Source of the DNA: Thalassolituus oleivorans MIL-1
GTDB taxonomy: Bacteria; Pseudomonadota; Gammaproteobacteria; Pseudomonadales; Oceanobacteraceae
Reading direction: 5' to 3'
Length of the DNA: 64,000 nucleotides
NCBI RefSeq assembly: GCF_000355675.1
Contig: NC_020888.1
Location: forward strand, 3,331,501 to 3,395,500
Shown piece after piece: positions 5,707-21,210 of this stretch; the stretch's first letter is position 1, and every line of letters begins with the position of its first letter. The translations under genes were made by a program, and so were the position numbers. The notes beneath the pieces were generated by a model, which was given only the letters and a program-made list of their open reading frames with translations, was not told the origin of the DNA and searched no databases.

Positions 5707-6300
5707 ATGAAAAATATTGCCCCCCCCCAAAGCACTTCACATCGCACTCGCATTCTAGAATCGTTAGAAACGTGTCTAGACGCCAAATCGTTTCGGGATA
5801 TAACTCTCACCGATATCGCGGCGGCAGCGCACATTTCACGTAGAACCTTCTATGAACATTTTGCCAACAAGGATGAGTGCCTACTGGCATTAAGTGAGGA
5901 AACAAGTGCCCATATAATGAAAGCGATACTTACTTCGTTTTCAGGCGCCGATTCTTGGGAAGATAAAGTAGAGAAAATCAGTCACGCTTATTTGCAAGAG
6001 ATACAGAAAAAAACGGTACTAATGCGTGCTTTATATATCGAGTTGGGTGCATTGGGACTAGAAGGACAACAACTACGCCGAAAAATTGCCGACATATTTG
6101 CAGATTTTTTATGTAATCAAGTAAAAATGCATATATTAAAAGGCGATAGTTTGCGCGAAATATCGCATGACGTCGGCGTCATCCTAGTTTCGGGGATAAA
6201 CCAATTAATCCTCAATCGATTACTAGATGACAATAAAGCCAGATTAACTGACCTAACCAGCACTGCGGTACAAATTATTCACAGCGTCTCTAAAATTTAG
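5707..6300 (+). CDS. TetR-family repressor with poly-C tract near its start
   Basis: A 197-residue TetR/AcrR regulator. Residues 14-60 form the TetR helix-turn-helix (ESLETCLDAKSFRDITLTDIA, then ISRRTFYEHFANKDECLLAL); the remaining helices are the ligand-binding domain. Divergent from the DUF2236 gene with two shared palindromic operators. Codons 5-8 contain nine consecutive C residues (5720-5728), unusual in this moderately AT-rich sequence; a slip of one base there would abolish the protein. The inducer is unknown. Confidence 0.88.
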   Translation: MKNIAPPQSTSHRTRILESLETCLDAKSFRDITLTDIAAAAHISRRTFYEHFANKDECLLALSEETSAHIMKAILTSFSGADSWEDKVEKISHAYLQEIQKKTVLMRALYIELGALGLEGQQLRRKIADIFADFLCNQVKMHILKGDSLREISHDVGVILVSGINQLILNRLLDDNKARLTDLTSTAVQIIHSVSKI

Positions 6301-6503
6301 CAATTAAAATTCCAATCTAATATTAGCGGACACACATCCAAGTGATACAGAAGAACTGTCGCTAATAGAGCTCAGAATGTAGATTCCATAACTTAGTGAT
6401 GCTGACAAAAAAGTTATCATGTATAAGCTGCCAAGCTAAAAGAAATACAAAGAATATTTCGACAACAACGAAGGCAGCTATATAGACCTAATAAGAGAAA
6501 TAC

Positions 6504-7358
6504 TTAACGTATAACCAAGTTTTTCACTTCTAAACGTGTATTCCCACAATCACCGCCTCTTGGTGAAGCCAAATCAAATGTCACGCGACTAGCAGATTCA
6601 AGTAACTGTGAAATATGCCTTCCTTTCAAAGTAAACTCTAAATTGGTCCAGTCTCGTTCCGCGTCCGAATACACACCCAATCTCTTTAAATCTCCTGAAG
6701 TATCGCCGACAGACACAACTAAGGGATAACGACAACTTTGAGCAACTAGGCTTTCATCAGTAATAATTCGATATGAGAGAGCCATGGTATGACCCGTCAC
6801 ATCTACCGAATCAAAGGCTGCTTCTAATTGGAAGCGCCCTCGCTTGCTTGTCCAGTTGGCATCAACCGCGATTAAATAATCCGGTTCAGTATCCAAAGTT
6901 AATGGCTCAACCAGATCAACTTCAGCATTTTTGTACTGGCGAATGTTCCAATTAATTTTACTTTGATCAGTACCCTCAAAAAAAATCATATTACCGAATG
7001 CGGTAGCAGCATGGCGATAAGGAAGCACGGCCTGATAATTGTCGCTGTAATACCATTCTTTAGCAGCATCTAACGATGGAAAGGTTAAAATAATGGTCCA
7101 ATTATTATCCCATTCACCTTCGAACACTTCTTTATCGAAAGTCGCAACCAGCGGCTTTCCTCCGTAAAAATCAACTTCAACCTCTGCCGGCACGGCATAC
7201 TGATTAAAGAACATGTCTACATCAACAATTTCCGCCTGCAAGATGATAAATGCCTTATTAATTTTTTCGTTTTGATCAATAATCACATCTTCTTGCGCAT
7301 AGGAAAACTGAGTTAAAATCGAGATCCCGCCAACAACCAACCACTTTAGAAACTTCAT
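6504..7358 (-). CDS. Secreted DUF1330-domain protein, last gene of the isonitrile operon
   Basis: About 284 residues. A signal peptide (KFLKWLVVGGISILTQFSYAQ) is followed by a DUF1330-like dimeric alpha/beta-barrel domain (residues about 25-130: GGKPLVATFDKEVFEGEWDNNWTI split by typical FPSLDAAKEWYYSDNYQAV), then a roughly 130-residue beta-rich C-terminal domain I do not recognise. The start is the second ATG because GGAGG lies 5 nt before it; the upstream ATG overlaps that site. It begins 24 nt after the HAD gene, so it is co-transcribed. Periplasmic location is inferred; catalytic function is unknown. Confidence 0.72.
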   Translation of the reverse strand: MKFLKWLVVGGISILTQFSYAQEDVIIDQNEKINKAFIILQAEIVDVDMFFNQYAVPAEVEVDFYGGKPLVATFDKEVFEGEWDNNWTIILTFPSLDAAKEWYYSDNYQAVLPYRHAATAFGNMIFFEGTDQSKINWNIRQYKNAEVDLVEPLTLDTEPDYLIAVDANWTSKRGRFQLEAAFDSVDVTGHTMALSYRIITDESLVAQSCRYPLVVSVGDTSGDLKRLGVYSDAERDWTNLEFTLKGRHISQLLESASRVTFDLASPRGGDCGNTRLEVKNLVIR

Positions 7359-7382
7359 AAAATCCTCCATTTTTATATAAAC

Positions 7383-8045
7383 TTAAGCAGGAACAACAAC
7401 CTCAAGACCAAAACTTAGCAACATCGAATCAACGTCACTAAATACACGTCCTGGATTCATCGTTTGCAATTCCTTGGAACTAGAATACCCCCACAATACT
7501 GCAATTGAGTTAACTCCAGCATTTCGGGCTGTTTGCAGATCAACGATGGTATCTCCGATCATGAAACACTCAACTGGCTTAAACTGGTTTATCAGTCTGA
7601 TTAAAGTATCAGGATTCGGCTTCGCTTTGTTTTCAGGGCTTAGTCCGACAATGGCATCGAAAGAAATATTAGGAAACATTGCAGCAACGATCTTCTGAGC
7701 TAACGGCTGAATTTTGTTAGTTAAAACCGCAAGATAATCACCTGAACTTGCAATAGACGCCATCGCGACCGCTATGCCAGGATATGGCTTAGAACGAACC
7801 AAGCAATTTTCTTTATAGTTTAACTCAAACAAAAAATGAGCTTCTTCAACGGCATCAAATTCATCCCCTAACGTCTTAGTAACCATATTCAACGTTCCGT
7901 TACCAACGAGCTTGCGATAATGCTCTAACGGTTTAGTTGGCAATCCATAGAAATTAAGAACAGCATTCATTGAAGCCGCGATATCCTCGACGGTATCTAC
8001 GATTGTACCGTCAAGATCGAATACGAATAATCTTTTATTTTCCAT
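7383..8045 (-). CDS. HAD-family phosphatase (phosphoglycolate phosphatase-like)
   Basis: A 220-residue HAD hydrolase. All motifs are visible: DLDGTIVD at 10-17 (nucleophile Asp10, acid Asp12), LTNK at 108-111, KPNP at 142-145 and GDTIVD at 164-169, with a helical cap between motifs I and II as in Gph/PGP enzymes. The start at MENKR is preceded by GAGGCTCT, the same eight bases used before the upstream TSUP gene, and leaves a 7-nt gap to that gene. Housekeeping Gph is normally elsewhere; here it is embedded in the isonitrile operon, so it may act on a pathway phosphate or a ribulose-phosphate-derived by-product (inference). Confidence 0.85.
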   Translation of the reverse strand: MENKRLFVFDLDGTIVDTVEDIAASMNAVLNFYGLPTKPLEHYRKLVGNGTLNMVTKTLGDEFDAVEEAHFLFELNYKENCLVRSKPYPGIAVAMASIASSGDYLAVLTNKIQPLAQKIVAAMFPNISFDAIVGLSPENKAKPNPDTLIRLINQFKPVECFMIGDTIVDLQTARNAGVNSIAVLWGYSSSKELQTMNPGRVFSDVDSMLLSFGLEVVVPA

Positions 8046-8052
8046 TAGAGCC

Positions 8053-9012
8053 TCATAATGCATTGAATAGAACAGCCACACCGTCAACGAAGATAACGGC
8101 AATAATGAAGTGCTTCAGTCTATCGCTAGATTTGACATTAGATACCTCTCCGACATCCCCAGCATCACCGCAAATTGCCACACCCATTCTTGCGCCCAAA
8201 CGCCCACCAATGACGACACCTGGCGCAGTGAATGCGAGGAAATCCCAACGGATACCACCCAATTCAGAATGAATAAGTAATCCAGCTATAGAGCAGCCGG
8301 CTAATGCAGCAACCCCTGTTGAAATACATAACGCAAGCGGATAACGCCAACGTAACAACATCCATAGCGCAACGATCTCGCCTATACCGATAGAAACCCA
8401 AGCATTTATCATTCCGCCAAGTAGGCATAACGCGGCAAAGACAATAAGATCCAAAAGCGTTGGCTTGCGGATGTTGCGATATTCAGAACTATTTTTGGAA
8501 TAATAAACTTCAATAATCAAGATAACCGCCAACCCCAAAGATGCTGCACCGAAGGCTATATCGATGTGATTTTGGTTAGGAGTAATATAAAAGCTTCCAA
8601 TGAACATCCCAGCAATAGCAAAAACAAGCGAAAAACCGAGAACACTCATTACAATGCGCTTTACCGACCACGCTAAAGCACCAGAAGACATACCAAATGC
8701 TTGAGTCGCTAATGCTAATTTTAACGATTCTAGAGAAGTGAACCCGTAACCGAAAGTAAACAATGGCATGAATATAAAACCGCCACCAACAGCCGTTGCA
8801 TTAGCAACGGCTGCGGCGACGATAGCGGTAAAAAACACGGGCCATCGCTCTAAAATCAGGTCTATTGGCTCATCGAAAGAAAAAGCGATGACCAATAAAC
8901 CAACGACAATGGCAACAGCAAAGAAGACTAAATCTTTGGTGAACTGGGTTGAGAAATAACTTCTGGGCTCCCCAGTATCAACTACTTCACTACCACTAGC
9001 ATCGATATGCAT
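8053..9012 (-). CDS. TSUP (TauE/SafE) family membrane permease
   Basis: A 319-residue polytopic inner-membrane protein with about eight hydrophobic segments. The glycine-rich NATAVGGGFIFMPLF near residue 90 and the second-half repeat (GGMINAWVSIGIGEIVALW, then APGVVIGGRLGARMG) are typical of the TauE/SafE/TSUP family, which moves sulfite, sulfoacetate and other small organic anions. The gene is spaced 8 nt after isnB and 7 nt before the HAD gene, with GAGG 6 nt before its ATG. In this operon it may export a product or import a precursor (inference). A soluble loop of about 30 residues follows the last conserved segment before a final helix. Confidence 0.85.
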   Translation of the reverse strand: MHIDASGSEVVDTGEPRSYFSTQFTKDLVFFAVAIVVGLLVIAFSFDEPIDLILERWPVFFTAIVAAAVANATAVGGGFIFMPLFTFGYGFTSLESLKLALATQAFGMSSGALAWSVKRIVMSVLGFSLVFAIAGMFIGSFYITPNQNHIDIAFGAASLGLAVILIIEVYYSKNSSEYRNIRKPTLLDLIVFAALCLLGGMINAWVSIGIGEIVALWMLLRWRYPLALCISTGVAALAGCSIAGLLIHSELGGIRWDFLAFTAPGVVIGGRLGARMGVAICGDAGDVGEVSNVKSSDRLKHFIIAVIFVDGVAVLFNAL

Positions 9013-9020
9013 AAGAGCCT

Positions 9021-9809
9021 CTACAATATGTGGACACGCTGTATGCGTCGTCGATCCGATGCACTTTGAAAGGAATTTCTGCCGTGTAACAACGCATTGT
9101 TGTTAAACATCAAAAACTCACCTTTTGTCCAACGGTGCTGATAGAGATATTTCGACTTATACAAATGAGCATTAAGCTCCCGTAAAAAAGCATCCGAATT
9201 TAATCTATCCATACCATCAACCGACACGTCGATAGGATTTATATCTTCATTATCTTCATTAAAGGCCTCCATATAACGAATCACCGGCCGACCGTCATTG
9301 GTCATTGGGCACACAAGCGGCCAAGACAAGGTCCCGCCAAAATGGGCTTTTCTTTCAGTTTGGTAGGTAATATTGGCGGCCTTCAACTTGCTCTTGAATT
9401 CGTCATCGCTATCTTCAAATGCGTTGATAGAATCACAAAAAATCGTTTCGCCTCCCTCAAAATCATTACCCTCGATACATTGAAAAAAGCTGTACTTTGG
9501 CGTCTTTTCAGGCCCAAGATAACTACCATCCCAATGTAACTCTAAGCGACCTTCGCGAAAGATATGATTCTTTGGGTTTTCTTGGATTTGTAGGTCGAAT
9601 ACATAGCCAAAATCCCATTTCAATAGCGGCCCGAATCGCTCCGAAAAAGCCACCATTTCGTCCTTAGATAAAGAATCAAATCCACGAAATAGTAGTAAGT
9701 GATAATCCTTAAATAAGTTCTCGATATAGCTGCTAGGTAATTCGAGTAAATTGGTATTGTCCGCTGCGTGAACAATACCTCCGAATTCACATAGATTTTC
9801 GATATTCAT
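9021..9809 (-). CDS. isnB: Fe(II)/2-oxoglutarate dioxygenase, isonitrile pathway (PvcB/IsnB-like)
   Basis: A 262-residue TauD/TfdA-fold oxygenase. The iron ligands are visible as His92-Trp-Asp94 (LHWDGSYL) and His242 (LLHGRNSF), with the C-terminal RRRIQRVHIL supplying the 2-oxoglutarate arginine. The sequence follows Pseudomonas PvcB along its length (HLLLFRGF, NHIF, LHWDG.YL, FFQC, RVHI), and it starts one base after the isnA stop (TGATATG). PvcB/IsnB enzymes oxidise the amino-acid isonitrile made by IsnA, typically with decarboxylation to a vinyl isonitrile. Which amino acid is used here cannot be told. Confidence 0.88.
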   Translation of the reverse strand: MNIENLCEFGGIVHAADNTNLLELPSSYIENLFKDYHLLLFRGFDSLSKDEMVAFSERFGPLLKWDFGYVFDLQIQENPKNHIFREGRLELHWDGSYLGPEKTPKYSFFQCIEGNDFEGGETIFCDSINAFEDSDDEFKSKLKAANITYQTERKAHFGGTLSWPLVCPMTNDGRPVIRYMEAFNEDNEDINPIDVSVDGMDRLNSDAFLRELNAHLYKSKYLYQHRWTKGEFLMFNNNALLHGRNSFQSASDRRRIQRVHIL

Positions 9810-9810
9810 A

Positions 9811-10839
9811 TCAAGACGCTCGCTCTAATCGCATCTGACGCACAAAGTGACTTGGGCGGCCATCTTGATAAGCAAGTAACACATCGGGCTGAGCTTCAGC
9901 ATCAGAACGTTTCATAAATAGGACACGATCATCTTCGACAACTGCAACGGAATGCCAAGGCGTTACCCAAGCATTTTCCGCATCACCAAGATAGATGCCT
10001 ATCTTCTCTGATACTCGAAACTGCGGATGTATCGAAAGACGCACGGCCTGAGGAAACTGCTCTTTCAATAAGCGACTCCAAGCGTTCGAGCGCTGAATAA
10101 CACGATAAGAAACCAGCTTTGAAGCTTTTTGGATAGCATTTCGCGCCAATGATCGAAATGGATCAATTCCGCTAAAATCCTCAAAAATAAAACGCGTAAT
10201 TCCAAGATACATGGATTTAGCATGCGGCTCAGTTTTAGTTCGATAAACCAAATCCGACAGTGCCTCTCCATAAGATACCATTAGGTCTTCACGCATTGTC
10301 TCAAAACAAGATATAGAGCTATAAACCTTGTCTAAATTAAAGAAGGTAAACACACCTGGGTGCGATTCTTCAACCATTGATCTCAGGGTCTCACCGTACT
10401 CCGTTACGTGATCATCCGAAATTCTCAATAAATCTGAAAACACCCGACCATCTGAGCAAATTGATATTTCAGCACCTGGCGAGTAAATAGATTTTATTTC
10501 ATCGCACAACAAGCTCAGTTGTTTAAATGCATGGCGTTCAGCATAGTCAGGTAAATGGGCTAATGTCTTGTTACGATTTGGAGATTTAACCGGAAATGCT
10601 GGTAAAATCATTTGAATTTTCTCTCTTGCTTCGACATAAGCAAGGATTCTCTCAAAATGAACTTGACGCTCTTCTCGCTCACCTACTTCGGCGATATCTT
10701 CGTCGGGCAATAAACGGCGCTTATCAAAAATAACATTCAATATTTGATCGGCCAACATTGCGGCATTAACAGTAGGAACAAGAGAGTTCTCTGTATCCAA
10801 CGTTTCAGTATCGCGGTGACTTACGGTTAAATCTTCCAT
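9811..10839 (-). CDS. isnA: Isonitrile (isocyanide) synthase, PvcA/IsnA/Dit1 family
   Basis: A 342-residue enzyme expected to convert an aromatic amino acid plus ribulose 5-phosphate into an isonitrile carboxylate. Family landmarks are strong: LPAFPVKSPNRNKTL at residues 79-93, LPDYAERHAF at 96-105, and PGAEISICSDGRVFSDLL at 121-138, which match PvcA (LPGFPGKSPN, ICSDGRVFSDL). Near the C-terminus SIHPQ and TPWHSVAVVE are also typical. It is 24 nt after the halogenase-like gene and one base before isnB, so the pair is translationally linked. The N-terminal 30 residues are variable. Tyr or Trp as substrate is inference from the family. Confidence 0.9.
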   Translation of the reverse strand: MEDLTVSHRDTETLDTENSLVPTVNAAMLADQILNVIFDKRRLLPDEDIAEVGEREERQVHFERILAYVEAREKIQMILPAFPVKSPNRNKTLAHLPDYAERHAFKQLSLLCDEIKSIYSPGAEISICSDGRVFSDLLRISDDHVTEYGETLRSMVEESHPGVFTFFNLDKVYSSISCFETMREDLMVSYGEALSDLVYRTKTEPHAKSMYLGITRFIFEDFSGIDPFRSLARNAIQKASKLVSYRVIQRSNAWSRLLKEQFPQAVRLSIHPQFRVSEKIGIYLGDAENAWVTPWHSVAVVEDDRVLFMKRSDAEAQPDVLLAYQDGRPSHFVRQMRLERAS

Positions 10840-10863
10840 AGTTCAGATCTCCATGTGGGTGGG

Positions 10864-12558
10864 TTAGGCCATTGCTACTTGGCTTTCTTGCTCTTTACGA
10901 GTCTTATTAGCTTTCGTACATAAAGTGTTAAAGGCCTCCAATACCGTTAATTCGTATTGGCAGGACTCTCGCGCTGCATCCATTAGATCGGCTTTAGTTG
11001 CCTGAACATTATCTAGTTCAGCCAAGCGCTGAAGAATGCCGAGATAAGTTACTTCCAGCATTTTTTGCTCGATGTGCACAATGGAGTCCATGGTTAACGT
11101 GCTACCCATGGTGCGGGTGTTTTCCATGAAACAATCGTCAATTTCAACATCGAAGAATTGACCTTCATTATGCGAAAATTCCAATCCACGACTCTTCAAT
11201 AAGTCTTCAAATTCATGAGCTATGTGATCAATTTTATGGATCACATTGTTAGCACTTAAATAATCCATCTGATCATAAAAACCCTGTAAATCAGCCATCG
11301 TCATACCGGGCATATAACCCCAATTCTTCACCATTGACGAAGGCAGGATAATCCCAAACCACTGCATCAACATCGAGGTAAAGTAGACTTTTTGACGGTC
11401 ATAACAAGGATGATATAGACCTTTAATATGTAGAAAGAAGTTATCAAGCCAGAATTGAGAAAAACGATTAAATACCGGAACCATTACACGGTAAGCTTCA
11501 TCATCACCTTGCATGTCAGCTTTAATCATATCGCCGATCATACGATTACTATCGGAGAGATAAGCCGATCCTGGTGACAATAGTGGGTCCAAAAATACAG
11601 CAGACATACCCGTTAGGAACCAGCGATCTTCAGAATAAGGAGCCGATACTCTACGAGAAAGATTTTTCATCTGGGTATAGTCAAGAATCCTTGTCGTTTC
11701 TACTGGCAATAGTTCTTCCATACACTTGTGAGTGCGCAAGAAATCTAAGAACTCTTGTTCACCTTTTATCTTGATATCGCATTCATCATTTTTAGTAACA
11801 AGCCCAATACTATATGTTTCGCCATCTAGAGGAATTAGCCAGAACCAATATCCTCCGTACATAAAGTGTGTCGTCGCCAATGTGCGGGTGGTGTAACGCA
11901 CACGCTGACGCCATTCTTTGCCACCAAGTAGATCAAGATTCGCAACACCAGAAACACGAGCCCAATATGAGCTAATCGGATGCTCATCGTTTTTAATTTC
12001 ACAAATACCAAGTTGACGAGCAATAGGCGATGCGAAACCCGCTGCATCCACAACCCATTTAGCGCGAAAATTACCGGCTGCAGTTTTAATCGTATGACCA
12101 TGATCGCGATCCAGTGCGACATCTGTGACTGTCACGCCTAAACGTACATCAATGCCTGATTCAATATTCATACGACAAAGATCAGTATCAAACTTTTTAC
12201 GATCAATTTGATGAGCCGGTGTGCCGTGATACCAAGAACGTCCTACTTCACTCATATCTTTTAAGGCTAAGTCATGCTCTTTCGAGTCATAGAAAAAGCG
12301 CAGGCCGTGCTTGTACAAATGGTTAGTATCTAGGTAGTGGCCTAAATCCAGACTAGTGGCAGCATAGTTCCAGAATGCCTCTAAGGTAGACTCGCCTACC
12401 CAGTATCCGAATTCAGTTTTGCGTTCAATAACGGTAATTCTCAATTCAGGATGTTCTAGCTTCATCTGTCTAGCAAGACAGCCGCCAGCCATTGAATGAC
12501 CGATAATAAGCAAATCGCATTGTGTTTCGTGATTTTCTTCTGACATTAATTCGTTCAT
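10864..12558 (-). CDS. Flavin-dependent halogenase-like enzyme of the isonitrile operon
   Basis: A 564-residue FAD enzyme of the tryptophan-halogenase family. Visible: FAD-binding IIGHSMAGG at 18-26 (a variant of GxGxxG), VGEST at 54-58, the halogenase signature WxWxIP as WFWLIP at 238-243, and DPLLSPGS at 324-331 lining the active site. Lys83 in LYKHGLRFF is placed like the catalytic lysine of FAD halogenases (inference). The start is the ATG at 12558, preceded by AGGAG; a start 48 nt upstream has no ribosome-binding site. It heads the operon with isnA and isnB. No flavin reductase is encoded beside it, so reduced FAD must come from elsewhere. A hydroxylase of the same fold is the alternative. 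Confidence 0.8.
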   Translation of the reverse strand: MNELMSEENHETQCDLLIIGHSMAGGCLARQMKLEHPELRITVIERKTEFGYWVGESTLEAFWNYAATSLDLGHYLDTNHLYKHGLRFFYDSKEHDLALKDMSEVGRSWYHGTPAHQIDRKKFDTDLCRMNIESGIDVRLGVTVTDVALDRDHGHTIKTAAGNFRAKWVVDAAGFASPIARQLGICEIKNDEHPISSYWARVSGVANLDLLGGKEWRQRVRYTTRTLATTHFMYGGYWFWLIPLDGETYSIGLVTKNDECDIKIKGEQEFLDFLRTHKCMEELLPVETTRILDYTQMKNLSRRVSAPYSEDRWFLTGMSAVFLDPLLSPGSAYLSDSNRMIGDMIKADMQGDDEAYRVMVPVFNRFSQFWLDNFFLHIKGLYHPCYDRQKVYFTSMLMQWFGIILPSSMVKNWGYMPGMTMADLQGFYDQMDYLSANNVIHKIDHIAHEFEDLLKSRGLEFSHNEGQFFDVEIDDCFMENTRTMGSTLTMDSIVHIEQKMLEVTYLGILQRLAELDNVQATKADLMDAARESCQYELTVLEAFNTLCTKANKTRKEQESQVAMA

Positions 12559-12691
12559 ATCAACTCCTTGATTAAAATAAAATGCGCTTGGCACTTGTGC
12601 TTTCACACGATGAGAATATTTTTTATAATTTTTAATCTATTATTCTAATGCTATAAAAATATTTCAAAATTAAAATAATTTAGATAGCAAA
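12559..12691 (-). promoter_or_regulatory. AT-rich leader/promoter region before the isonitrile operon
   Basis: 133 bp between the phosphatase-like gene and the halogenase gene. The stretch 12618-12680 is almost pure A/T and contains several TATAAT-like hexamers on the minus strand, so a promoter for the six-gene operon is likely here. No single -35/-10 pair stands out, and no symmetrical operator was found. AGGAG at 12565-12569 is the ribosome-binding site. Confidence 0.4.
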
Positions 12692-13174
12692 CTAAGCAGG
12701 CTCTAACGATCTGGCGTTCATCATAAAATCGCGCCAAACATCGTTCATAGTCCAGTTAGGATCTGATTTCCAAATCGAATCTATAAGTTCGTTAGATTTT
12801 TCTTCACTCCAGTTCAAGTTTTTCTCAGCCCAAATGGAGAAAAAGACTGTGACGCGATAATTTGCTGCGCAATGAATCCATATTTTTTTTCCGTAATTAT
12901 TTTTTAGAGCTGTACTGAAATGTTCGTAGTCTTCAGTAGACGGAGATTTAAAATCGACTGGGATGTGAATATAGGGAAGGTTTAAGTTTCTGAGCAATGC
13001 GGGCTGATCTTGAATTGAATATCTATCATAATCCACAGGAGCCAAATCAATAACTAGTTCAAAACCATCTTCTTTGATCTTTCTGAAATCCTCTTTCGAG
13101 GGCTGACCACTCGTGCTTATCAGGTCATTTATCTTCTTGTAGTTAAAGACTTCGCTACTTTTCATAGTATTCAT
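12692..13174 (-). CDS. Small tyrosine-phosphatase-like protein (CX4R loop)
   Basis: A 160-residue protein with the fold signatures of the DUF442/dual-specificity phosphatase group: STSGQPSKEDFRKIKEDGF near 20-38, VIDLAP at 41-46, and a phosphate-loop-like HCAANYR at 101-107. The spacing is Cys102-X4-Arg107, one shorter than the standard CX5R of tyrosine phosphatases, so activity is uncertain; the related DUF442 proteins also have a short loop. A strong GGAGGAGG site precedes the ATG by 7 nt. It lies on the same strand 133 bp upstream of the halogenase gene and may share its transcript or control; substrate unknown. Confidence 0.7.
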   Translation of the reverse strand: MNTMKSSEVFNYKKINDLISTSGQPSKEDFRKIKEDGFELVIDLAPVDYDRYSIQDQPALLRNLNLPYIHIPVDFKSPSTEDYEHFSTALKNNYGKKIWIHCAANYRVTVFFSIWAEKNLNWSEEKSNELIDSIWKSDPNWTMNDVWRDFMMNARSLEPA

Positions 13175-13644
13175 GATCTCGCCTCCTCCTAAGTTAACGC
13201 TTTAATACCGTCAATCATTCGTATATCTACAGATTGATTAAATTCAAAAGTGCTACAACTTACTCACAGATACTCTGCGTGTACTAACATGAGCGGAAAG
13301 CATGCTATTGCATAGACTTATCAGTTGCAACCAAACTCCTTTACCATGCACCTACATATTATGCACTTTCAAGCAATTTCAATACATGCAATCTGACAAA
13401 CAGGTCAATAACAAACTCCTTATAAATTCACTAAAAATTGTAAAAAACCTGTTTTTAAAGCAAAAAATGGCCATTTATTCATTTTGTAACACTAATGACT
13501 ATCTAATATTTATCCGATCAGCATTTCACTCTTCCAATTTGACAATGCATGTAAGTACATGCATTATCGAGAAAGAGTGACATGCAATGACGATAACCAT
13601 CAAAGCAAAGGCTCATTACGTCTAATAACAATGGAGGTTTACCC
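13175..13644. other. 470-bp divergent control region of the isonitrile cluster
   Basis: Non-coding gap between the minus-strand biosynthetic genes and the plus-strand export genes. It holds one perfect 22-bp palindrome (listed separately) and three extra copies of its ATGCAAT/ATTGCAT half: 13307-13313, 13386-13392 and 13582-13588. The sequence is AT-rich with runs of A and T at 13431-13470. GGAGG at 13633-13637 serves the transporter gene. An open frame at 13302-13580 lacks a ribosome-binding site and was not called. Confidence 0.6.
13544..13565. promoter_or_regulatory. Perfect 22-bp palindrome, candidate MarR operator
   Basis: AATGCATGTA (13544-13553) and its exact complement TACATGCATT (13556-13565) are separated by AG. 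It lies 80 bp before the start codon of the transporter gene, where a repressor would block transcription. The MarR protein encoded at the far end of the cluster is the obvious candidate to bind it, since MarR dimers recognise palindromes of this size; binding is inferred. Confidence 0.6.
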
Positions 13645-16600
13645 ATGAAAAACGACACTGCCAGTTGGCGCTTTTTTTCCAATCTATTCAAAAAACCTAT
13701 TGCATTGGTCATCATCCCGCTCATCTTTTTTATAGGTGCTGCGAGCTTTTTGCCGACAATAGTTAAAGATACTCGTGGAGATGCCTTCCTTTCACCAGAC
13801 AATCCCGCGCTGCTATATCGCGAGCGAGTTCGTGATCAATTTGGTTTAAATGACCCGGTTGTTGTCGCAATAAAGGCCGACATCTACACGCCTGAAGTAC
13901 TGCAACTAATTGCTAGCCTAACGAACACAATCGAAGGCCTTGAAAATGTTAAGGAAGATAAAGTCTTCAGCTTAGCGACTGAAAAGAATATGTTTGGGGA
14001 TGATGGGAGCCTGATCGTTGAGGATTTTCTTGATCCATTGCCCTCAACCTTAAGCGAAGCTCTATTGGTTAAGAAAGCTATTCAAAATTTTCCGCTATAT
14101 AACGGCAGTATTGTATCGAAGGACGGTGATGTAGCTTTAATAGTTGCCGAACTATGGAATCAAGATATTTCTAATGTAACCTACAAGCAGGTTAACGATT
14201 TAGCGGCTGCTGAAATTGTTCGATTTAATGAAGAGCACGGTACAAGTATCGAGTCTTACGTCGCTGGTGAAGGCGCTATTGCTGGATACTTAGGCGAATA
14301 TATCGATAACGATATGAAGATATTAAACCCAATTGCGGGACTCATTATCTTCACTATCGTCGTCATCTGCTTTTCTGCGTTCAGCTCAGGACTACTGGCA
14401 TTAATGATGATTGCCACAACGGTTCTTTCTACTATTGGTATTATGGCAGCTTCGGGAGTTTCTTTTTATGTGATCACTAATGCTCTACCCGTTATTCTTA
14501 TTGGTATTGCCGTTGCCGACACTATCCACATATTAGGTCATTACTTCGAACTTCAAGCAGATCCCAAGCGAGAGATGAATCGTGACTTAGTCATAGAGAC
14601 CATGGCAGAAATGTGGCGCCCAGTTGCGCTGACCTCCCTTACAACGATCGCGGGCTTTGCTGGTCTTTATCTTGCCTCCGACATGCCTCCATTTAAGTTT
14701 TTTGGTCTTTTCGCTGCAGTAGGGGTTGCTCTTGCATGGGTCTACTCGATGACACTACTCCCAGCGGTACTCATTTTAACTAAACCGAAAGCATCCAAGC
14801 GCTATTTGCTAAACTATCTTAATAACGATGATAAAAAACGAGATATTTTTTCTCGCTTTATTCAAAAGCTCGGCACATTGTCATTAAAGTACTCTAAGTC
14901 GGTTGTAGTGCTAGGATCTTTGATTATTGTTATCGGTGCTGTCACTGGCTCAAATATCGTCATTGATGAAGACCGGATCGATACTTTCAATAAAAAGGAG
15001 CAGATTTACAAGGCCGATAAACTGATCAATGGTCACACCAATGGGGCGAATAATTTAGATATTATTGTCGAGACCAATGAGAAAGAAGGCCTATTTTCAC
15101 CCGAAGCTCTAGTTAAAGTAGAAGCGTTACAAAATTATGCCTTAACTTTTGATGACGTCACTAGTGCTACGTCTATTGTTGATTATCTTAAGCAAATGAA
15201 TATGTCGCTCAACAATAGCGACCCATCAGCCTATGTGTTGCCTGGTGATCGCAAGAGCATCGCGCAGTACTTCTTGATCTATTCAGCGTCTGGTGAATCA
15301 ACAGACTTCGACGAAGAAGTCGACTACGACTATAAGGTAGCTAACGTACGCCTCACTTTTAAAACCGGCAGTTATCACCGTAATAAAGAGATTGTAGAGA
15401 GCTTACAAACTTATATTGGGCGTGAGTTTAACGATGAGAATATATCTGCAACTATGACTGGCCGTGTAACTGTTGACTACTTCTGGATACGAGACCTAGG
15501 CGATGGTCACTTCTTCAGTCTTGGTATTGCTTTAATTCTCGTACTACTGGTGTCAGCACTTATGTTCCGTTCGATGCTCGCCGGAATATTCACTCTAATA
15601 CCTGTTTGCACTGCACTACTCTTTGTCTACGCAACAATGGCGATATTAAAAATCCCTCTGGGAATCGGTGCCTCTATGTTTGCATCAATAGCGATAGGCT
15701 TAGGAGTAGACTTTTCGATTCATACAATCGATCGAATCAGAGAGCTATTTCGTAAAGAGAAAAGCATTGAGGGACAACCAGAACAAAATATTGATACCTT
15801 AATTGCCAAGTTATATCCGAGCACAGGTCGCGCATTACTATTTAACTTTATTGCTCTTGCTTGTGGCTTCGGTGTTCTGATCGCCAGCAGCGTCGTGCCG
15901 TTGAATGAATTTGGATCTATTGTCGTCGTTGCCGTTGTAGGTAGCTTTTTATGCAGTATGACGCTATTGCCTGCGCTTATTAAGCTAACCAAGCCAGCCT
16001 TTATACACGGAGCAAAAGAGTCATTAGTCATTCCCGTATCGAGCACCGCAGTTCTCCTCATCGTAGCGGGTACATTAGGCCTTGCCAGTAAATCCGATGC
16101 CAGCGAGAGCCCTATGAAGGTCGAAGACATCGTCACCAAAATCGTTCAGGTAGACGAAGGCGATCATGTTACTCGTAGTCTAAAAATGCGCTTGATTAAC
16201 AAACAAGGCAAAGAACGCATTAGTGAAACCACAATTTATCGTCGCACTTTAGACGACGAGAAACGGACCTTGGTTGTGTATAACCGTCCGACAAACGTAA
16301 AAGATACCGCATTCCTGACGTACGATTATCAATCCCCCGAGCACGAAGATGATCAGTGGCTGTATCTGCCAGCCACAAAAAAATCTAGACGGATATCAGC
16401 TTCAAATCGCGGTGATTACTTTCTAGGTACGGACTTCACTTATGAAGATATCAAAAACGAAGGGAAGATGGAGTTGTCAGATTATAATTTCACTTTGCTA
16501 GGGAGCGTTCAATACGAAGGACAAGATGTATTCCAAGTTCGCGCCATTCCAAAATCAGAGAAAATCGCTCAAGAACTAGGCTACAGCCGCAACGAGTTTT

Positions 16601-16839
16601 TGGTTGATAAGTCAAATTGGATCATCGTGAAAAACGATTATTGGGATATTAAAGACAAACCTTTAAAAACCATATACCTAAAAGATCTAGAAAAGATACA
16701 AGGAATATGGAGCCGTAAAAAGTTGGTTGTTATTAATTATAAAACAGGCCATACAACCGAATTTGACTTCTCAGACATAAACTATGATACCGAAGTGCCG
16801 GAATCGATTTTTGATGTTCGAGCTCTATCGCGTCGATAA
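13645..16839 (+). CDS. MMPL/RND-type transporter fused to a LolA-like domain
   Basis: A 1064-residue inner-membrane protein. Residues about 20-780 form an MMPL/RND exporter: a first helix, a periplasmic loop, a block of helices with the sterol-sensing-like PVILIGIAVADTIHILGHY, a second periplasmic loop, and a second block with FASIAIGLGVDFSIHTIDR. After a hydrophobic stretch at about 795-815 comes a periplasmic LolA-like outer-membrane-lipoprotein-sorting domain (824-1064: DDQWLYLPATKKSRRIS, GTDFTYEDI). These two parts are normally separate neighbouring genes; the linking helix looks like the old signal peptide. GGAGG precedes the ATG by 7 nt. Probably exports a lipophilic product with the barrel encoded next. 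Confidence 0.85.
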   Translation: MKNDTASWRFFSNLFKKPIALVIIPLIFFIGAASFLPTIVKDTRGDAFLSPDNPALLYRERVRDQFGLNDPVVVAIKADIYTPEVLQLIASLTNTIEGLENVKEDKVFSLATEKNMFGDDGSLIVEDFLDPLPSTLSEALLVKKAIQNFPLYNGSIVSKDGDVALIVAELWNQDISNVTYKQVNDLAAAEIVRFNEEHGTSIESYVAGEGAIAGYLGEYIDNDMKILNPIAGLIIFTIVVICFSAFSSGLLALMMIATTVLSTIGIMAASGVSFYVITNALPVILIGIAVADTIHILGHYFELQADPKREMNRDLVIETMAEMWRPVALTSLTTIAGFAGLYLASDMPPFKFFGLFAAVGVALAWVYSMTLLPAVLILTKPKASKRYLLNYLNNDDKKRDIFSRFIQKLGTLSLKYSKSVVVLGSLIIVIGAVTGSNIVIDEDRIDTFNKKEQIYKADKLINGHTNGANNLDIIVETNEKEGLFSPEALVKVEALQNYALTFDDVTSATSIVDYLKQMNMSLNNSDPSAYVLPGDRKSIAQYFLIYSASGESTDFDEEVDYDYKVANVRLTFKTGSYHRNKEIVESLQTYIGREFNDENISATMTGRVTVDYFWIRDLGDGHFFSLGIALILVLLVSALMFRSMLAGIFTLIPVCTALLFVYATMAILKIPLGIGASMFASIAIGLGVDFSIHTIDRIRELFRKEKSIEGQPEQNIDTLIAKLYPSTGRALLFNFIALACGFGVLIASSVVPLNEFGSIVVVAVVGSFLCSMTLLPALIKLTKPAFIHGAKESLVIPVSSTAVLLIVAGTLGLASKSDASESPMKVEDIVTKIVQVDEGDHVTRSLKMRLINKQGKERISETTIYRRTLDDEKRTLVVYNRPTNVKDTAFLTYDYQSPEHEDDQWLYLPATKKSRRISASNRGDYFLGTDFTYEDIKNEGKMELSDYNFTLLGSVQYEGQDVFQVRAIPKSEKIAQELGYSRNEFLVDKSNWIIVKNDYWDIKDKPLKTIYLKDLEKIQGIWSRKKLVVINYKTGHTTEFDFSDINYDTEVPESIFDVRALSRR

Positions 16840-16889
16840 TAATAAAATAAACATTTAATTTTTGTGGACTAATATTAAGAAGGTTTGAA

Positions 16890-18167
16890 ATGCTTAAAAA
16901 TTATAAAAACATCAGTCTGTATTTCGGATGTACTCTTGTTATTTTTAGTCCACAATTTTTATATGCAAGTGAAATTTCCGTAGCTAACCAGATCGTACAC
17001 GAAACATCGGTCACTCAGAAAGAAAACTTCGATGAGGTTGATATAGTTAAATCGGAAAGCTTATTAAAATCGGATATATCTGGAGAAGTTGGTCAGGTAG
17101 GTTTTAAGATTGACGCTAGGTTCCGTTATGACCTTGAAGACCAAATAGATAGTCGACAATCAGAAATTCAATTTAGAGATGCCTTTATAGACTTTGAAAA
17201 TCAAGGAACATACTGGCGCCTAGGGAAGCAAACCATTGTTTGGGGTGCAAGCGATGGCTTACGACTACTGGACGTTATTAACCCGCTAAACTATCGCGAA
17301 TTTATCCTAGATGACTTCGATAACTCACGAATCTCGCTTACATCTGCCAGTGCGGACATTCCTATCAGCGATGGTAGCTCGCTAACCATTATCGTTATAC
17401 CTGAGCTTAAGTTCAATCAATACGCCAAAACCGGTACACAATTTGAACTGAGCCACCCGTTACCAGAACTGTCGCAAATGCCAACTTCGCTACAAATCAA
17501 TTCCGCAAAGGAACCTCAACAATCTTTGCATAACAGCGAACTCGCATTACGCTACGCAACCTTTGCATCCGGCTGGGATATTACGCTCAACTATTTTTAC
17601 CACTATCATGATGACCCAGTGGTATTTATTGACGTTGATGGTGGTGGTGCAGTAAGTGTCAATCCGGAGTATAAACGTAATACACTTGTTGGCGGGACGG
17701 CGAACAATGCTTTTGGAGATTTCGTTCTGAGAACAGAGTTTGTTTTAAATAACTCCCGTTATTATTCTACAGATAATCCTAATCAGCGATTTATTGATAA
17801 AGCTCAAGAGCTTCAGTACGTCATTGGCTTGGATTACTCGGGCATTAGCGACACTTTAATTAGTGGCCAATGGTTTCGACGCCAATTGTTAAGTTATGAA
17901 AAAGATATTGCAGAAGATGCGATAGAAAACACACTCACCTTATTATTACGTCGCTACTATGCCAATCAGACAATTACATTAGAAGCTTTGACATTGCATT
18001 CATTAGATAACTCAGATGGTCTGATTAGGCCAAAAATCAAATACGAGTTCAATACTTTTGTTCAATTTGAGTTAGGTGCAGATATATTTTATGGCAATCA
18101 GAGTGGCTTCTTTGGCCAGTTTGCGGCCAAAGATCAAGTAACCGTAGGTGTTAGTGTTGGCTTTTAG
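16890..18167 (+). CDS. Outer-membrane beta-barrel protein (DUF1302-like)
   Basis: 425 residues with a signal peptide ending near YAS and then alternating aromatic/polar beta-strands ending in a terminal aromatic (VTVGVSVGF), as expected for an outer-membrane barrel. The segment RLGKQTIVWGASDGLRLLD followed by NPLNYREFILDDFDNSRI is characteristic of DUF1302-type porin-like proteins found with MMPL and LolA-like genes. It lies 50 nt after the transporter gene with AGAAGG 7 nt before the ATG, so the two form an operon. Likely the outer-membrane exit or acceptor of the export system (inference). Confidence 0.75.
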   Translation: MLKNYKNISLYFGCTLVIFSPQFLYASEISVANQIVHETSVTQKENFDEVDIVKSESLLKSDISGEVGQVGFKIDARFRYDLEDQIDSRQSEIQFRDAFIDFENQGTYWRLGKQTIVWGASDGLRLLDVINPLNYREFILDDFDNSRISLTSASADIPISDGSSLTIIVIPELKFNQYAKTGTQFELSHPLPELSQMPTSLQINSAKEPQQSLHNSELALRYATFASGWDITLNYFYHYHDDPVVFIDVDGGGAVSVNPEYKRNTLVGGTANNAFGDFVLRTEFVLNNSRYYSTDNPNQRFIDKAQELQYVIGLDYSGISDTLISGQWFRRQLLSYEKDIAEDAIENTLTLLLRRYYANQTITLEALTLHSLDNSDGLIRPKIKYEFNTFVQFELGADIFYGNQSGFFGQFAAKDQVTVGVSVGF

Positions 18168-18183
18168 TAACTACGGATAAATC

Positions 18184-18642
18184 TTAAATTGGAGTACCAC
18201 ACTTACCTACAATCGCATCGCTCAGCTCAATGATTTGATCTGCGATGCTATTACCGAGAGTTTCTCTCATTTCATTTTGTGCCAACTTCCATTGTTTCTC
18301 TCCGGCGGAAAACATAATCTTTCCCTTAGCGGAAAGAGAAAGTAATTTTCGGCGGCGATCACCTTTGTCTTCTTTCATAACAACCATTCCATCACTAACC
18401 AATTTTTTAAGGTTACGACTGAGAGTTGTTTGATCTAACACCAGAATGTCTTGAATCACTTGGCTGGTACAAGTGCCTGCATAATGCATCGCACGCATAA
18501 CCGAGAACTGACTAACGGATAAGCCGCACTCAGCAAGGTGGCGATTATAAACATGGTTAATAACTCGATCTGCTTTACGCAAACTAAGATTAAGACAAGG
18601 TTCTGGTGCCATAGGGCTTACTGGTGAGTTTTCTTTTAGCAT
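18184..18642 (-). CDS. MarR-family regulator
   Basis: A 152-residue winged-helix regulator. The DNA-binding part reads SQVIQDILVLDQTTLSRNLKKLVSDGMV, followed by the wing DRRRKLLSLSAKG; both are textbook MarR. It converges on the barrel gene with a 16-nt gap and closes the isonitrile/export region, so control of that region, perhaps through the 22-bp palindrome at 13544, is likely. An internal ATG at codon 11 is an alternative start; neither has a good ribosome-binding site. Confidence 0.85.
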   Translation of the reverse strand: MLKENSPVSPMAPEPCLNLSLRKADRVINHVYNRHLAECGLSVSQFSVMRAMHYAGTCTSQVIQDILVLDQTTLSRNLKKLVSDGMVVMKEDKGDRRRKLLSLSAKGKIMFSAGEKQWKLAQNEMRETLGNSIADQIIELSDAIVGKCGTPI

Positions 18643-20616: not shown

Positions 20617-21210
20617 CTAGAAAGCGTTAAAATCGACTTCTGGCAATTGTTCAAAGGCTGGTTTGGCAAAAAGATATCCTTGCATCAACTCCACACCAGA
20701 ATCTCGAAGCCACTCCATTTCCTCAATCACCTCAATACCTTCAGCTAACGCTGTAATATTTAATTCACGGAGCATCGTTAATACATTACTTATAATAATT
20801 TGGCGATTCTTATCTTTATGAATATCTCGAATCAGTCCCATATCAAGCTTAATAATATTTGTCTGAAAATCAGCCAAAAGTCCTAAACCTGAATTCCCCG
20901 CACCAAAGTCATCAACAGCCGTAATAAAACCCAACTCACTATAATATTCAACAATCTTTTTTATAAAAGAAGAGTCTTCAATTTTCTCAACCTCAGTAAA
21001 TTCAAACATGATTTTATTAGCAGGAAAATTATAATTTTTAGCTGCATCTAAGGTTGTACGGATACAGCGCTCCGGCTTATATATAGCATTCGGTAAGAAT
21101 TAATACTTAACATTGAATCTTAATTCAGTTTGGCAACAAGCTTAGTAGTAAATACGGCATCCTGCAGAATCTCGTTACAAAAATGCGTATACCCGAAGAC
21201 CTTGGCTTAG
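20617..21210 (-). pseudogene. Decayed EAL-domain (c-di-GMP phosphodiesterase) gene
   Basis: The 130-codon open frame at 20617-21009 is the C-terminal half of an EAL domain: VDDFGAGNSGLG, IKLDMGLIRDI, ALAEGIEVIEE and MQGYLFAKP are intact. Reading upstream past its ATG, the same frame gives LPNAIYKPERCIRTTLDAA to 21099, then a stop. Restoring one lost base joins it to SIN (giving the canonical SINFLPNA), and further upstream KVFGYT and LDTK, EAL-like N-terminal motifs, appear in other frames with stops between them. So there are at least two frameshifts and several stops. Similarity is highest to BLUF-EAL proteins, but no BLUF domain remains. A short residual peptide cannot be excluded. Confidence 0.8.

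Follow-up and report, generated by a model that had tools for sequence, protein, structure and literature searches.

An apparently undescribed isonitrile gene cluster with a halogenase-like flavoprotein and a linked envelope exporter in Thalassolituus oleivorans MIL-1

Gene content of the locus

The genome of Thalassolituus oleivorans MIL-1 (contig NC_020888.1) was analysed over a stretch of 64,000 nucleotides, positions 3,331,501 to 3,395,500, here called the window. Between 6504 and 18642 of the window lies a compact block of genes for an isonitrile synthase (IsnA), its partner oxygenase (IsnB), a flavin-dependent halogenase-like flavoprotein (Hal) and a putative envelope exporter. Our favoured reading is that this is probably an imported biosynthesis-and-export cluster, whose product would be an aromatic isonitrile that is halogenated by Hal and exported to the envelope.

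Genes were called from an open reading frame (ORF) map together with Pfam and NCBIfam scans of the window proteins (Table 1). The original prediction, made from the DNA sequence, had named a Hal-like protein, IsnA, IsnB, a TSUP permease, a HAD phosphatase, a DUF1330 protein, an MMPL-LolA fusion, a barrel and a MarR regulator, and each was found where it had been placed and in the expected family. All six of its minus-strand genes are present, but a seventh, encoding a DUF442 protein, had been overlooked. Translation of Hal most likely begins at ATG 12558, which has AAGGAG ∼7 bases upstream and gives a protein of 564 amino acids (aa). The MMPL, LolA-like and outer-membrane barrel components of an export module are all encoded at the locus, and IsnA is present as one copy in the whole genome. 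Further along the window a lone EAL-like fragment of 130 aa (20617–21009) was read by eye as a possibly decayed cyclic di-GMP phosphodiesterase.

Table 1. Features of the isonitrile locus, in window coordinates.
Feature	Position	Strand	Evidence or remark
DUF1330 protein, probably secreted	6504–7370	-	Pfam match, 66 bits
HAD phosphatase (HAD_2), phosphoglycolate-phosphatase-like	about 7383–8045	-	107 bits
TSUP (TauE/SafE) permease	8053–9012	-	64 bits
IsnB/PvcB Fe(II)/2-oxoglutarate (2OG) oxygenase (TauD/PvcB), 262 aa	9021–9809	-	133 bits
IsnA/PvcA isonitrile synthase, 342 aa	9811–10839	-	PF05141 (DIT1_PvcA), 270 bits
Hal, flavin-dependent halogenase-like flavoprotein, 564 aa	10864–12558	-	Trp_halogenase, 37 bits
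DUF442/PTP-NADK-like (sulfurtransferase-like) protein	12692–13174	-	Pfam/NCBIfam scans
Operator-like palindrome, arms 12/13	13541–13568		upstream of MMPL gene
MMPL transporter fused to LolA-like domain, single ORF	13645–16839	+	111 bits (MMPL), 181 bits (LolA_like)
DUF1302-type outer-membrane barrel	16890–18167	+	45 bits
MarR-family regulator, within GC-poor block	18184–18642	-	Pfam/NCBIfam scans

IsnA and IsnB

The PF05141 score of IsnA lies far above the family cut-off of 26.4 bits, which only two of 391 genomes of the order exceed, this genome being one of them. IsnA also matches the structure of PvcA from Pseudomonas aeruginosa (3e59) at 225 bits and shares the invariant core columns of four other IsnAs in an alignment, so that the known core residues are retained. 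IsnB matches both PvcB and PIsnB. Its predicted metal ligands H92, D94 and H242 align with H101, D103 and H250 of PIsnB, and R258, the arginine expected to anchor the carboxylate, and W65 with R265 and W74.

The pocket of IsnB is formed by S96-Y97-L98 together with M180. In characterised enzymes K or R at position 107 with N or H at 188 goes with a vinyl isonitrile, and L at 107 with C at 188 goes with an isocyanoacrylate; this is a correlation, and mutation of one position at a time left the product unchanged (PMC9467999). At the equivalent positions L98 and M180 depart from the PIsnB type, while for the PvcB type the first position fits and the second is M instead of C. The rule therefore gives no decision, and the aromatic vinyl isonitrile proposed in the original prediction gains no support from it. 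A third pattern was seen among 69 aligned IsnBs, for example AFA or AYL followed by RFIE or RFAE, and is common to the window clade and to cyanobacterial enzymes from hapalindole-like loci with two IsnAs plus IsnB. In PIsnB, M105-Y106-K107 lines the ring pocket, and mutation to AFA abolished ligand-induced stabilisation (PMC9467999). A smaller side chain at the position equivalent to 105 might accommodate indole or a halogenated phenol. The specificity positions, compared for a preference for Tyr or Trp, are divided between Tyr-like and hapalindole-like residues, with 3 vs 2 in IsnA and 8 vs 10 in IsnB.

The halogenase-like flavoprotein

Hal carries WFWLIP at residues 238–243 and FLDPLLSPG at 322–330, the latter corresponding to the FxxPxxSxG tunnel motif. 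WxWxI(P) is found in seven of seven relatives and FxxPxxSxG in six of the seven. Residue K83 aligns with the presumed catalytic lysine of CmlS (K71), and this lysine is invariant in all 20 aligned sequences. The residues expected of a halogenase are thus kept at all three sites. The motifs WxWxI and FxxPxxSxG serve to annotate flavin-dependent halogenases (FDHs), and the former has been described as a block to monooxygenation (PMC12871659). A profile built from seven Hal relatives matched PltA, CtcP, CmlS and other FDHs first.

An AlphaFold model of Hal from 11 sequences (pLDDT 80.6, pTM 0.84), which replaced a model from seven sequences (pLDDT 60.6), was compared with known structures, also by Foldseek. 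The best matches among halogenases were Bmp2, PltA, PltM, CtcP and ChlB4, with Z scores of ∼29–30 over 376–440 residues, and the tryptophan halogenase PrnA scored lower (26.9). The top row overall was an uncharacterised flavoprotein, 3nix (Z 30.9). On this model Hal appears most like the phenol/pyrrole class of FDHs, ahead of the tryptophan class, with a small margin over hydroxylases.

It is the sole halogenase candidate in the genome. The other PF04820 match of the genome, L158, was rejected, as by eye its sequence reads as a UbiH-type hydroxylase. A search of the database of genome contigs with the Hal sequence alone gave no matches, and an IsnA alignment served in its place.

Several observations weigh against the favoured reading as a whole. 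The GxGxxG motif is GxSxxG (GHSMAG) in Hal and in five relatives with an intact N-terminus, and in the Aquimarina relative (L057) the glycine of FxxPxxSxG is replaced. Flavin adenine dinucleotide (FAD) hydroxylases such as PHBH reach Z ∼27 against the model, nearly as high as the FDHs, so that the fold alone is no proof of halogenation. The cluster is without a flavin reductase, and one found in the genome is distant from it. Some wel clusters carry WelH, an FDH-like protein with WxWxIP that was inactive in assays, and the hpi and amb clusters are without it (PMC4236562). To these may be added the IsnB product signature, which matches neither published type; both product and halogenation are predictions. 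Hal could accordingly be an FDH-fold ring hydroxylase or oxidase in a PvcC-like role, giving an oxidised, non-halogenated aromatic isonitrile. The GxSxxG variant, the hydroxylase scores and the inactivity of WelH all speak for such an enzyme, but we consider it unlikely, as Hal keeps both motifs and the lysine position, its profile finds FDHs first, and WxWxI is the very motif linked to suppressed monooxygenation. A halogenating Hal is the favoured reading.

Recurrence of the gene set

A profile of aligned IsnAs was used to scan ∼85,000 species genomes, which gave 80 loci in which homologs of the window genes were mapped. In six further genomes a Hal homolog (40–50% identity) immediately precedes IsnA and IsnB, in identical order (Table 2). 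The synteny that had been proposed as a check on the original prediction is thus borne out, and the association is more than chance. In the Aquimarina locus IsnA and IsnB are naturally fused into one protein of 593 aa (L057:1701-3482).

Table 2. Genomes sharing the Hal-IsnA-IsnB triad with the window. MAG, metagenome-assembled genome.
Locus	Genome	Arrangement
L057	Uncultured Aquimarina, contig-edge locus	Hal 5'-truncated; IsnA-IsnB fused
L058	Shewanella MAG	Hal-IsnA-IsnB
L061	Proteobacteria MAG	Hal-IsnA-IsnB
L062	Gammaproteobacteria MAG	Hal-IsnA-IsnB
L064	Chromatiales MAG	Hal-IsnA-IsnB
L065	Pseudoalteromonas piscicida	Hal-IsnA-IsnB

The seven Hals form one clade (support 100/98, all 200 bootstraps), and the corresponding clades of IsnA (11 rows, 97/100) and IsnB (10 rows, 100/99) are separate from those of PvcA/PvcB and of the hapalindole enzymes. 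Searches made without IsnA turned up Hal-like proteins of ∼35% identity at most, located in other loci. The trees suggest that Hal, IsnA and IsnB each have one origin across these relatives and that the gene set is a conserved family.

Genes of the MMPL, LolA-like and barrel families accompany the triad in five of the six relatives, the exception being L057 at its contig edge. MMPL and LolA-like are separate genes in the five and fused only in the window. Pfam confirmed MMPL for L058 and LolA_like for both L058 and L065. The barrel homologs were linked by BLAST, and those of L058, L064 and L065 gave no Pfam match themselves. Within the IsnA clade, exporter genes occur in six of seven Hal-bearing members vs none of four Hal-less members (p ∼0.015 if the rows are independent).

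MMPL-LolA modules are also widespread without Isn genes, and the closest relatives of Hal beyond the clade are found in loci resembling, by eye, aryl-polyene clusters. The exporter and accessory genes might then be mere neighbors of an Isn-Hal operon, handling lipids, an aryl-polyene-like pigment or the like. Given the five relatives with exporter genes, and the single collinear run MMPL-LolA-barrel-Hal-IsnA-IsnB in Shewanella and Pseudoalteromonas, with gaps below 20 bases or overlaps, this seems very improbable. The dedicated envelope export of the original prediction stands as far as this conserved, collinear linkage goes, but not as a matter of module type, since such modules are common elsewhere; the exporter would be dedicated by linkage.

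Other pairings of an FDH with isonitrile genes were also met. In three Aquimarina genomes (L088:9947-14336, L090 and L099) IsnA, IsnB, an FDH and a HAD protein lie in one run, and the FDH is from another clade than Hal. Because the FDHs of Aquimarina and of the Nostocales locus described below differ from the Hal clade, FDHs and isonitrile genes may have come together on more than one occasion. The earlier statement that IsnA/IsnB do not occur with a WxWxIP flavoprotein was hence too strong in view of these loci and WelH.

Accessory genes

In the Shewanella locus TauE lies directly 3' of IsnB and is followed by HAD on the opposite strand. HAD adjoins the Isn genes in L057, L058 and L065, and a DUF1330 homolog (43% identical) occurs in L062. 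Homologs of the DUF442 protein were found in L061, L062 and L139, the last on a Burkholderia stagnalis plasmid. The L139 locus (7956–12552) has two isonitrile synthases, one of them fused to a TauD domain, and its DUF442 frame is split.

The DUF442 protein has the loop HCAANYR (C102-A-A-N-Y-R107), a C(X)4R loop of rhodanese length; protein phosphatases carry C(X)5R. L061 and L062 both conserve the loop, and the split copy of L139 retains HCAAN. The Pfam scan gave no match to the rhodanese domain PF00581 in the cluster, DUF442/PTP-NADK being matched instead. In a Nostocales genome (L067:9992-15647) IsnA and IsnB are followed by a true rhodanese, seen as two matched stretches, and further on by an FDH, making it a candidate isothiocyanate pathway.

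These features raise the possibility of an isothiocyanate as end product, in which DUF442 would transfer sulfur to the isonitrile and TSUP would handle thiosulfate or sulfite. The conserved loop, a weak likeness of DUF442 to the Blh sulfurtransferase, the recurrence of TSUP in Shewanella and the rhodanese next to IsnB in Nostocales are in line with it, as is the rhodanese of Burkholderia that makes isothiocyanates from isonitriles, to which a passage of PMC12112954 refers. Set against this, DUF442/PTP-NADK proteins are annotated as phosphatases, the Blh match is far below the NCBIfam cut-offs, and both the DUF442 gene and TSUP are absent from several relatives. We judge an isothiocyanate product improbable; the fuller version, in which Hal would halogenate the ring, DUF442 add the sulfur, TSUP move thiosulfate or sulfite and the halogenated aromatic isothiocyanate be exported, is a long shot. 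A halogenated isonitrile remains the preferred product.

Origin and regulation

The block is absent from eight other genomes of the genus, and its genes have a GC content of 0.38–0.44, vs 0.47–0.49 in most flanking genes. Horizontal acquisition of the cluster is therefore the simplest reading. DUF2236-TetR is a conserved gene pair of the genus and is present without the block in five congeners, which places the left limit near 6300–6500 and the pair outside the cluster. Neither flanking direct repeats marking an insertion nor a tRNA in the window were found.

The divergent promoter region spans 470 bases (about 13.2–13.6 kb). Here the near-perfect palindrome lies between a -35-like TTGACA and a -10-like CATTAT, overlapping the promoter-like site. 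The 3.9 Mb genome contains a single full match to the palindrome, making it likely that a dedicated local repressor acts on it, and MarR is the nearest candidate. The promoter of the MarR gene itself holds no copy of the palindrome. An operator common to this promoter and the divergent one was also sought and rejected, the best 20-mer match being no better than shuffles.

Proposed pathway and implications

From its family, IsnA would convert the amino group of Tyr or Trp to an isonitrile using ribulose-5-phosphate, after which IsnB, as an Fe/2OG enzyme, would desaturate the side chain with or without decarboxylation. Hal, whose signatures and fold suggest a two-component FDH, would chlorinate or brominate the electron-rich ring, either ahead of these steps or following them. 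Because the cluster holds no reductase, reduced flavin would be supplied by a housekeeping enzyme. The linked MMPL protein with its fused LolA-like carrier and the barrel are predicted to carry the product into the envelope or through it. HAD, DUF442, TSUP and DUF1330 would be accessory. The divergent promoter is probably under the control of a local repressor, either MarR or another.

Isonitriles, as reactive groups that bind metals, serve virulence, competition and metal uptake, and the gene set points to an unstudied natural-product family. The metal binding and phenoloxidase inhibition put forward in the original prediction are hypotheses for the present product. If the reading is right, a conserved mobile Hal-IsnA-IsnB-exporter module in Gammaproteobacteria and Bacteroidota makes halogenated aryl isonitriles by a compact route of three enzymes. 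Biocatalysis would gain a new clade of FDHs, the rules on product selectivity could be tested on a third type of IsnB, and a likely system for the export of isonitriles to the envelope would be at hand. As the named species Pseudoalteromonas piscicida carries the module, its product is directly testable.

Comparison with known systems

A description of the Hal-IsnA-IsnB-exporter gene set was not found in the open-access literature, with subscription journals mostly outside this coverage; to that extent the cluster is undescribed, as had been proposed. The pvc cluster of Pseudomonas aeruginosa (paerucumarin) has the IsnA/PvcA and IsnB/PvcB pair and a flavoenzyme partner, and carries PvcC/PvcD. 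The window differs in its FDH-type Hal and MMPL-LolA exporter, and in having IsnA and IsnB outside the PvcA/PvcB clades. The rhabduscin (isn) cluster of Xenorhabdus and Photorhabdus shares the IsnA-IsnB core and carries a glycosyltransferase; the PIsnB pocket is M-Y-K with N188, whereas that of the window IsnB is S-Y-L with M. The hapalindole, ambiguine and welwitindolinone clusters have the same core, and the window IsnB lies on their side of the main tree split. Unlike the window they contain prenyltransferases and duplicated IsnA, and we know of no MMPL-LolA-barrel exporter in them.

Similar-looking loci of the aryl polyene/xanthomonadin type house the nearest Hal relatives outside the clade (∼32–35% identity), but have a ketosynthase pathway and are without IsnA/IsnB. 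The sinapigladioside pathway of Burkholderia gladioli combines an isonitrile pathway with a sulfur-transfer enzyme, as is possible in the window, though there it is a true rhodanese and here a putative DUF442 sulfurtransferase. Seen beside these systems, the Thalassolituus locus is a real variation on the isn/pvc theme that seems to have gone undescribed.

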